64,000 nt of DNA, taken from positions 1-64,000 of the forward strand of contig CAMVRN010000004.1 of the NCBI GenBank assembly GCA_947169915.1. Direction: 5' to 3'. The position numbers were made by a program, and so were the translations under genes. The stretch's first letter is position 1; each line of letters opens with the position of its first letter. This DNA is from an uncultured Candidatus Saccharibacteria bacterium. Lineage in GTDB: Bacteria > Patescibacteriota > Saccharimonadia > Saccharimonadales > Saccharimonadaceae. Positions 17,330-46,849 of this stretch are shown here, piece after piece. The notes beneath the pieces were generated by a model that saw nothing but the letters and a program-made list of their open reading frames with translations, had not been told where the DNA came from and made no database searches.

Positions 17330-17406
17330 TGGTGATTCCGGCGGGAGTCGAACCCGCGATTTTCTGGATGAGAACCAGACGTCCTAGACCACTAGACGAC
17401 GGAACC
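17330..17406 (-). tRNA. tRNA-Glu(CTC), CCA encoded
   Basis: Reverse complement GGTTCCGTCGTCTAGTGGTCTAGGACGTCTGGTTCTCATCCAGAAAATCGCGGGTTCGACTCCCGCCGGAATCACCA; loop TTCTCAT. Confidence 0.93.
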
Positions 17407-17505
17407 GTGTGACTATTCTATCACAAAACTCTCCCCAAGTCCAGAAACAAAAGAATATAGACGGGTACAAAAAACGCCCCAACGGGCGATTCTATCAATA
17501 AATCT

Positions 17506-17580
17506 TGGTGATCTCTGCGGGAGTCGAACCCGCGTTGACGGGATGAAAACCCGTTGTACTAACCGTTATACTAAGAGACC
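17506..17580 (-). tRNA. tRNA-Glu(TTC), CCA encoded
   Basis: Reverse complement GGTCTCTTAGTATAACGGTTAGTACAACGGGTTTTCATCCCGTCAACGCGGGTTCGACTCCCGCAGAGATCACCA; loop TTTTCAT. Confidence 0.93.
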
Positions 17581-45048: not shown

Positions 45049-45564
45049 ATGAAACTAATTGTTGCCTTCGGTAATCCCGGAGCTCAGTACAACTTCACTC
45101 GCCATAACTTTGGCTTTTTGGCGCTTGATTTTTACTTCAAGGTGAACAATCTCTCCTGGGAGTCGCACGAAAAGTTCAGCGCAATCTGGAAAAAAGACGG
45201 CGACACAATCTTTATCAAACCCCAAACCTTCTATAATGAAATCGGCACTTCGGTCCGCGCTTTCGCTGATTTCTACAAGATATCCTCAGAGAACATTTTT
45301 ATCATCTGCGACGACTTCAATCTTCCGTTCGGACAAATTCGCGAGCGCGCTCACGGCTCCGCCGGCGGAAACAACGGTCTCAAATCCGTCATTCAACATC
45401 TAGGTACAGAAAACTTTCCTCGTCTCCGCCTAGGAACAGGGAATGACGAACTCCGCAAAAAACTCGGTGACGTCGACTTTGTGCTTTCGAAGTTCACCAC
45501 TTCCGAGAAATCCAATCTTCCAGAAATCCTCAAAAAGGTTTCTGAAAAAATCGAATCCATCTAA
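45049..45564 (+). CDS. pth: Peptidyl-tRNA hydrolase
   Basis: MKLIVAFGNPGAQYNFTRHNFGFLALDF; ICDDFNLPFGQIRERAHGSAGGNNGLKSV. Confidence 0.95.
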   Translation: MKLIVAFGNPGAQYNFTRHNFGFLALDFYFKVNNLSWESHEKFSAIWKKDGDTIFIKPQTFYNEIGTSVRAFADFYKISSENIFIICDDFNLPFGQIRERAHGSAGGNNGLKSVIQHLGTENFPRLRLGTGNDELRKKLGDVDFVLSKFTTSEKSNLPEILKKVSEKIESI

Positions 45565-45579
45565 AATTCATTACAAGAA

Positions 45580-45915
45580 AAAGTCCCTCGGTGCCAGATA
45601 GGTAAGGGTGGGCATCACCTATCCAGCACTGAGGGGCTTTTTATACACCCTATAACACTTCCTTCAAGATACCGGGAGGACCCCGGAAGCACGACCCACC
45701 TCACACAAAATATGGGGCCCGCCGGTTATAGGGATTGCTATGCCTTCGAAGGGTCCCGCTCAAAAGTGGAGGTAATACTTATAAGACTTAAAACCATTGA
45801 AGAAGAAATTAAAAGTCCGAGGGGTTTCAAAAGCACGCAACTTTTGTTACACTAAACCGTGTAACAACCGTTATAATTTATTTAGGTACAGTTTAGGGCT
45901 TTAAAACCCTAACTT
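45580..45915 (-). ncRNA. Candidate structured ncRNA (about 335 nt), family unknown
   Basis: Minus-strand promoter TTGACT-17-TATAAT (45922-45950), several perfect stems, terminator hairpin 45583-45637 with minus-strand T-tract; no ORF. Confidence 0.6.
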
Positions 45916-45921
45916 GTGTTA

Positions 45922-45950
45922 ATTATACCACAGCAAAACTTAAAAGTCAA
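45922..45950 (-). promoter_or_regulatory. Near-consensus promoter TTGACT-17-TATAAT driving the candidate ncRNA
   Basis: + strand ATTATA 45922-45927 and AGTCAA 45945-45950. Confidence 0.8.
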
Positions 45951-45970
45951 CACTTTTTTAACATTTTTTA

Positions 45971-46849
45971 ATGAAAATCAACGCAACACCACCCCAAGAG
46001 AACAAATATCTTGAGCAATTGGAATCTATTGCGCTTACGCCTAAATTATTATATTATTACGGAAATTGGCCAGAAAAACGCATCAAAACCGTCGCTATCG
46101 TCGGCGCCAGGAAAAGCACCGCCTACGGGGAAGAAATCGCTTATAAGCTCGCTAAAGCCCTCGGGGAACAGGGAATTATCGTCATTTCCGGCCTAGCCTA
46201 CGGTATCGACTCTATCGCCGCTCGCGGATGTCTTGATGGCGGAGGCAAAACTATCGCTATTTTAGGGACAGAAATAGAGAAGATTTATCCTAAAACCCAC
46301 GTCGCCTTAGCCGAAGAAATCGTCGAAAAAGGCGGAGTTGTCGCGAGCGAATACCATCTCGGAGATAAAATCTTCCCCAAAACCTCATTTTTAGAACGAA
46401 ATCGCATTATTTCTGGACTTTCCGACGTTGTAGTTGTTATAGAGGCAAGGGAACGTTCTGGTTCGCTTAATACCGCCATGCATGCGCTAGAGCAGGGAAA
46501 AGACCTCTTTGCTCTCCCTGGAGATATTAGCCGTCAAACCAGCCAAGGTTGCAACCGACTTATCGCCAAAGGCGCCAATCCGCTCCTCTCTATTGAAGAG
46601 TTCATGAAATACCTTGTTCCAAAGAAAAATACCCGCTCAAAGGCCAGTCAAATGGAGCAAATCTCTCTGTTTGCGGAAAACGACGCGGAAAGGAAAATAC
46701 TGCTCCAAATCGCTAGTGGCGTTCATGACGGCGACGTTATCATGGAAAACCTCAAAATTCCCGTCGAAACCTTTAATCAATCCATCACGATGCTCGAAAT
46801 CAAAGGCGCCATCACTGCCATGGGCATGAATTATTGGACGCTAAGCTGA
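45971..46849 (+). CDS. dprA: DNA processing protein DprA
   Basis: VAIVGARKSTAYGEEIAYKLAKALGEQGIIVISGLAYGIDSIAARGCLDGGGKTIAILG...FLERNRIISGLS. Confidence 0.94.
   Translation: MKINATPPQENKYLEQLESIALTPKLLYYYGNWPEKRIKTVAIVGARKSTAYGEEIAYKLAKALGEQGIIVISGLAYGIDSIAARGCLDGGGKTIAILGTEIEKIYPKTHVALAEEIVEKGGVVASEYHLGDKIFPKTSFLERNRIISGLSDVVVVIEARERSGSLNTAMHALEQGKDLFALPGDISRQTSQGCNRLIAKGANPLLSIEEFMKYLVPKKNTRSKASQMEQISLFAENDAERKILLQIASGVHDGDVIMENLKIPVETFNQSITMLEIKGAITAMGMNYWTLS

Follow-up and report, generated by a model that had tools for sequence, protein, structure and literature searches.

Among the described bacterial RNAs that come closest to the element reported here, 6S RNA (RF00013) is a stand-alone, housekeeping-like non-coding RNA of broad conservation, tmRNA and RNase P RNA are structured molecules of 300-400 nt present throughout the lineage, and the C-rich-loop sRNAs of the RsaE/RoxS and LhrC type carry their own promoter and terminator together with conserved unpaired C-rich loops that are able to pair with Shine-Dalgarno sequences. 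In a stretch of 64,000 nucleotides from a Candidatus Saccharibacteria genome (referred to as the window), a first-pass annotation made from the letters alone had proposed a new structured ncRNA between pth and dprA. Our analysis supports this candidate, as it is without a match in Rfam, shows strong covariation, has a conserved promoter and carries a strand signal in its G-U and A-C cells. A new housekeeping-like ncRNA family is the best reading of the element, and we hold it to be very probable that a new structured ncRNA family has been found, a claim about identity that stands apart from the question of mechanism.

The pth gene ends at 45564 and dprA starts at 45971, and the ncRNA gene lies in the gap between them. 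Direct reading of the minus strand confirmed the promoter that the first-pass annotation had placed from 45950 to 45922, consisting of TTGACT (45950-45945), a 17-nt spacer and TATAAT (45927-45922) with an extended -10 element (TGTGGTATAAT), and it likewise located all the hairpins, the long-range stem and the terminator where they had been described. A TTGAC-N17-TATAMT promoter is kept in the aligned relatives and is present in other families too, and among the relatives of the source genome promoter and structure are both conserved. The approximate transcript covers 45578..45915 on the minus strand according to the placement of promoter and terminator and to the homologous span in 34 of 36 genus genomes, with its 5' end predicted about 7 nt past the -10 box and its 3' end within the U run that follows the terminator. 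At the level of sequence, this directly supports a predicted stand-alone structured non-coding RNA gene of about 335 nt with a sigma-70-type promoter and an intrinsic terminator, and from promoter, terminator and conservation we infer that the gene is transcribed. The promoter part of the query also has short matches (85-87%) elsewhere in relatives, at G013:C3:33133-33170 (L045) and G006:C3:80433-80466 (L046), and other genes may share the strong promoter type of the ncRNA gene. The gap (45564-45971) contains no open reading frame of at least 60 aa, in agreement with the earlier description of it as free of ORFs. A small-protein gene whose DNA folds by accident has a negligible probability in view of this lack of an ORF of 60 aa, of the variation that compensates within stems and of loop-length indels occurring in all frames.

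The minimum free energy of the minus strand is -116.1 kcal/mol, whereas its shuffles average -93.2 (z -4.55), and since none of the 100 shuffles equals it, chance is excluded as an explanation of the fold. Covariation among related genomes, which the first-pass annotation had suggested as a check, proved to be strong. One alignment, fitted to the model and comprising 76 members (75 distinct rows), leans towards the structure it was fitted to; in it 98.1% of the cells are in standard pairs, 32 of the 40 pairs show double changes and 386 cells are doubly changed, with 0 of 500 shuffles scoring as high and slid controls coming nowhere near. A structure-free MAFFT alignment of 45 members gave 97.4% paired cells and double changes in 18 of 25 pairs (0/500 shuffles). 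In a tree-corrected test, whose null consisted of alignments simulated along the tree under GTR+G with site rates kept, significance was reached by five pairs in the model-fitted alignment, by one in the MAFFT alignment and by two in a full-length alignment restricted to close relatives, the latter two alignments not being fitted to the structure; all eight pairs fall within the structure and none outside it.

Because G-U cells exceed A-C cells by 228 to 18, the RNA is placed on the minus strand. This bears on the idea that the structure might instead be a cis element of dprA, that is, a plus-strand 5' leader, riboswitch or attenuator. Although dprA, detected at 67 of 93 loci, is in all 67 the divergent neighbour located 5' of the RNA, the conserved promoter faces away from it, with the terminator on the side distant from it, the G-U pairs assign the structure to the minus strand, and the plus strand of the gap folds with a weaker z of -2.96. 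Moreover, the remaining 26 of the 93 loci have no dprA match in the examined flank, some of them perhaps through divergence from the query. We therefore consider a cis element of dprA extremely unlikely.

The alignments directly support a predicted fold of at least two covarying domains, one made up of H3, H4 and H5 and the other of H6, H7 and H8, followed by a terminator hairpin, all on the minus strand. Ahead of the first domain are the 5' hairpin H1 (TTAGGG/CCCTAA, 45893..45912), read from the sequence, with its stem kept and its sequence variable, an unpaired stretch conserved in the alignments of relatives (45878..45889; GUACCUAAAUAA, or GCACCUUAUACCCCC in many other genera), and H2 (45844..45867), a perfect 9-bp hairpin (45844-45852/45859-45867) that appears in sequence and alignment and is variable. 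H3 pairs UGCGUGCUUUUGAA (45826..45839) with UUCGAAGGCAUAGCA (45736..45750), a helix borne out by covariation with double changes in 13 of 14 pairs and four tree-corrected significant pairs. Within its domain the alignments contain the variable hairpin H4 (45785..45818), which takes forms such as GUCGAC/GUCGAC in L040 and GUCUAUAA/UUAUAGAC in L020, and H5 (45764..45780), an AAGU/ACUU stem that switches from A-U to U-A at one pair and presents the loop AUUACCUCC (45768-45776), whose CCUCC is kept in nearly all loci.

The second domain is closed by the long-range 9-bp stem H6, formed by CCCUAUAAC (45725..45733) and GUUAUAGGG (45648..45656), with 99.9% paired cells, double changes in 7 of 9 pairs and a tree-corrected significant pair. 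H7 (45689..45722; GCGGGCCC/GGGUC-G-UGC, with a loop containing UGUGAGGU and GGUGGG at 45695-45700) shows compensatory changes from C-G to U-A and from G-C to A-U, and the helix is confirmed by linked changes, among them GGACC/GGGUC becoming GGAUC/GGAUC in L100, L119 and L135, and two replacements by A-U pairs in L096. H8 (45672..45686), CCGGG/CCCGG at 45672-45676/45682-45686, has double changes in all five pairs. Several lineages among other genera and families (L173-L185) carry a much larger, different insert in place of the H7 region; the H6 stem, the CCUCC loop and the terminator loop are retained there despite this replacement. The terminator hairpin H9 (45583..45637) displays the conserved loop GAUGCCCACCCUU, with GCCCACCC at 45606-45613, and is followed by TTTTT; its inner five pairs are 100% paired, with double changes in every one.

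Across families, the promoter, the 5' hairpin, the C-rich unpaired stretch, the CCUCC hairpin loop, the H6 stem and the terminator loop GCCCACCC recur, and the CCUCC (anti-Shine-Dalgarno-like) loop, the CCCUUUAAC/GUUAAAGGG stem and the terminator loop are near-invariant throughout the order. The CCUCC and GCCCACCC loops persist although their stems vary. While the CCUCC loop reads AUUACCUCC in the source genome, it reads CUACCCUCC, with a C inserted, in many genera. The terminator loop is among the most conserved parts of the RNA and is not ordinary terminator sequence; as its stem is freely variable and the loop is not, the loop is itself under selection and has a task of its own. The hairpin as a whole probably also serves the convergent pth, since a T run flanks it on the plus strand as well. 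That the loop marks a genome-wide type of terminator was rejected, as a search of the source genome within 2 mismatches returned one other site, at 2 mismatches, and a reversed control pattern also had 2 sites. At one locus (L011, G012:C20) the GCCCACCC terminator hairpin is duplicated in tandem at the 3' end.

A GGUGGG/GGGUGG segment in the H6 domain is the predicted partner of the terminator loop GCCCACCC, and this pairing would close the RNA into a pseudoknotted body. A script found a GGUGGG or GGGUGG partner in 142 of 144 loci, a count without phylogeny correction in which some loci come from the same genomes; the two exceptions, L176 and L185, look like parser cuts, with L185 reading AAGGTGGG. 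The partner lies only in the body including H7 in 109 loci, only at the H6 junction in 17 and at both positions in 16, while independence predicts about 15 loci with neither. Uncorrected for shared ancestry, these counts support a loop-body pseudoknot rather than prove it. Helix H7 and the GGUGGG segment overlap in the source genus, where helix and pseudoknot pairing would thus be mutually exclusive. The H7 copy was dismissed as sole partner of GCCCACCC, since L096, L100, L119 and L135 lose it, and the copy at the H6 junction might hypothetically act as an alternative. The CCUCC loop is in addition complementary to GAGGU of the H7 loop; L096 alters GAGGU yet retains ACCCUCC, and compensation does not support this pairing.

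A DNA search with the minus strand matched 34 of the 36 genomes searched in the genus, including the source genome, and gave no match in 24 other families of the order. Covariance model R1, representing the RNA core, matched 145 of 392 order genomes in 28 genera. Model R2, comprising the H6 domain and the terminator and built from 45 diverse members, matched 327 of the 392, with 276 of 316 good-quality genomes and 128 of 156 genera represented, mostly in one copy. The members that R2 detected in a phylum-wide sample comprised 23 genomes from the family of the source genome and 7 further ones from its order; beyond the order that sample yielded only two borderline matches (E 1e-5 and 9e-4), and the out-of-order match L189 was unconvincing as a true homologue once its sequence was read. 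Neither model matches G028 and G322, two genomes of the same genus that are 95-97% complete. Absence from some genomes, these two among them, may be due to true loss, an assembly gap or the search settings, as the genome searches used strict filters that drop weak matches. The named relatives are Candidatus Saccharibacteria, mainly from ruminant gut and other metagenomes, and each of 21 named Saccharibacteria dprA loci has a match to the RNA model immediately upstream of dprA on the opposite strand. Taken together, this directly supports a mostly single-copy family, nearly universal among the sampled genomes of the Saccharibacteria order and adjoining dprA, with the source element as its founding example. 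It is unusual for an ncRNA so widespread in one bacterial order to be missing from Rfam 15.

When the whole window was searched with Rfam 15, two tRNAs were the only result; in the gap no match was credible even at E values up to 10, with the top score, 23.9 bits where the cut-off is 136, going to a eukaryotic microRNA model. A search of 20 distant homologous loci was equally without a match, and with this outcome of the Rfam comparison proposed by the first-pass annotation, a known Rfam family was discarded as the identity of the RNA. The sole tRNAs in the window are two adjacent tRNA-Glu genes (CTC and TTC anticodons) at 17330-17580 on the minus strand.

The earlier statement that the element is not RNase P RNA, tmRNA or SRP RNA also holds. 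RNase P RNA is encoded at C10:15323-15682 and tmRNA at C10:18799-19155 of the source genome, RF00010 has no match at the ncRNA locus, and ARAGORN detected neither a tRNA-like domain nor a tmRNA there. The models for SRP RNA (RF00169 and RF01854) and for 6S RNA (RF00013) found nothing in the source genome or at the ncRNA locus, and RF00169 stayed below its cut-off in 60 of 60 order genomes examined. The missing SRP RNA raised the idea that the new RNA might take its place, which was dropped since the SRP54 M domain (PF02978, Ffh) was not found in the source genome either, which is 96% complete, with 14 of 14 control genomes matched. The source genome appears to lack the signal recognition particle, and because the M domain was not found, its SRP slot is probably vacant and not occupied by the new RNA. 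That Rfam overlooked a divergent SRP RNA, 6S RNA, tmRNA or RNase P RNA is a very unlikely reading, and one that is largely refuted: while the apparently empty SRP slot in the 60 order genomes and the lack of a 6S match in the source genome speak for it, RNase P RNA and tmRNA are present elsewhere, the SRP models miss both the RNA and the 20 distant loci, no SRP54 M domain was found in the source genome, and 6S is a single long hairpin whereas the new RNA is multi-domain. A comparable SRP loss is reported for Parcubacteria (PMC4508563).

With respect to function, the mechanism we prefer, as possible rather than probable, is pairing of the C-rich loops in trans with Shine-Dalgarno sites. Exposed C-rich segments, foremost the CCUCC loop, would pair with Shine-Dalgarno sequences of mRNAs, and the RNA would thereby tune translation in trans in the manner of C-rich-loop sRNAs such as RsaE. 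The loop AUUACCUCC is nearly identical to the 3' end of 16S rRNA, AUCACCUCC. A strong Shine-Dalgarno site is located upstream of the first start in 20 of 59 long ORFs, and the source genome appears to make use of such sites. In 11 of the 59, for example pth (45049), a TATAAT-like box stands a few bases before the start codon, and the sequence suggests that leaderless transcripts are frequent beside Shine-Dalgarno-led genes.

About equally plausible, and sharing the ncRNA identity while differing in mechanism only, is a housekeeping RNP RNA that would bind a protein or, through its 16S-tail-like loop, the ribosome as a scaffold or decoy, comparable to 6S and CsrB-type RNAs. The RNA is conserved more broadly than trans-acting sRNAs typically are, a point in favour of such an RNP, and the order-wide, mostly single-copy conservation with strong covariation, the resemblance of AUUACCUCC to the 16S 3' end (AUCACCUCC) and the little change that the conserved loops accept point the same way. 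However, the C inserted in the CUACCCUCC loop of other genera suits base pairing better than a strict protein site. If Shine-Dalgarno pairing is correct, the RNA would act in an already known way; the novelty is at the level of the RNA family.

Saccharibacteria are tiny bacteria living on other bacteria. They are cultured epibionts with genetics, including natural transformation, Tn-seq and allelic exchange (PMC10633639, PMC12206443), so that the importance of the RNA is directly testable. The published Tn-seq of Southlakia epibionticum did not list DprA as a fitness gene (PMC10633639). The RNA is not described in the portions of the Saccharibacteria literature on noncoding RNA, SRP and transcriptomes that were covered, and the main text of a structured-RNA screen of the human microbiome (PMC8040213) does not mention Saccharibacteria, though its supplements may contain a match. 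As a regulator of translation or a housekeeping RNP, the RNA would offer a way into gene control in Patescibacteria, whose genomes are reduced; at the least, hundreds of genomes gain one more RNA family to be annotated.

Compared with the known systems, the new RNA resembles 6S RNA as a stand-alone, housekeeping-like and broadly conserved ncRNA, but 6S consists of a single long hairpin with an open-promoter-like bubble at its centre, whereas the new RNA consists of several covarying domains. In size it is near the large bacterial form of SRP RNA, and no other SRP RNA was detected in the genome; unlike SRP RNA it has no match to RF00169, RF01854 or any other Rfam model, and its genome yielded no SRP54 M domain. 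It is structured, in the 300-400 nt range and found throughout the lineage like tmRNA and RNase P RNA, both of which are encoded separately on contig C10, and no tRNA-like domain was found in it. With the C-rich-loop sRNAs (RsaE/RoxS, LhrC type) it shares its own promoter and terminator, here judged from sequence and conservation, and conserved unpaired C-rich loops, here CCUCC and GCCCACCC, that could pair with Shine-Dalgarno sequences; it departs from them by its length of about 335 nt, its multi-domain architecture, its order-wide occurrence, its additionally conserved terminator loop and the lack of an Rfam match. Somewhat short of an even chance, finally, is that it represents an undescribed, lineage-defining housekeeping RNP RNA in the league of tmRNA and 6S, which would act through its 16S-tail-like CCUCC loop and pseudoknotted terminator loop in bacteria that have apparently lost the SRP.
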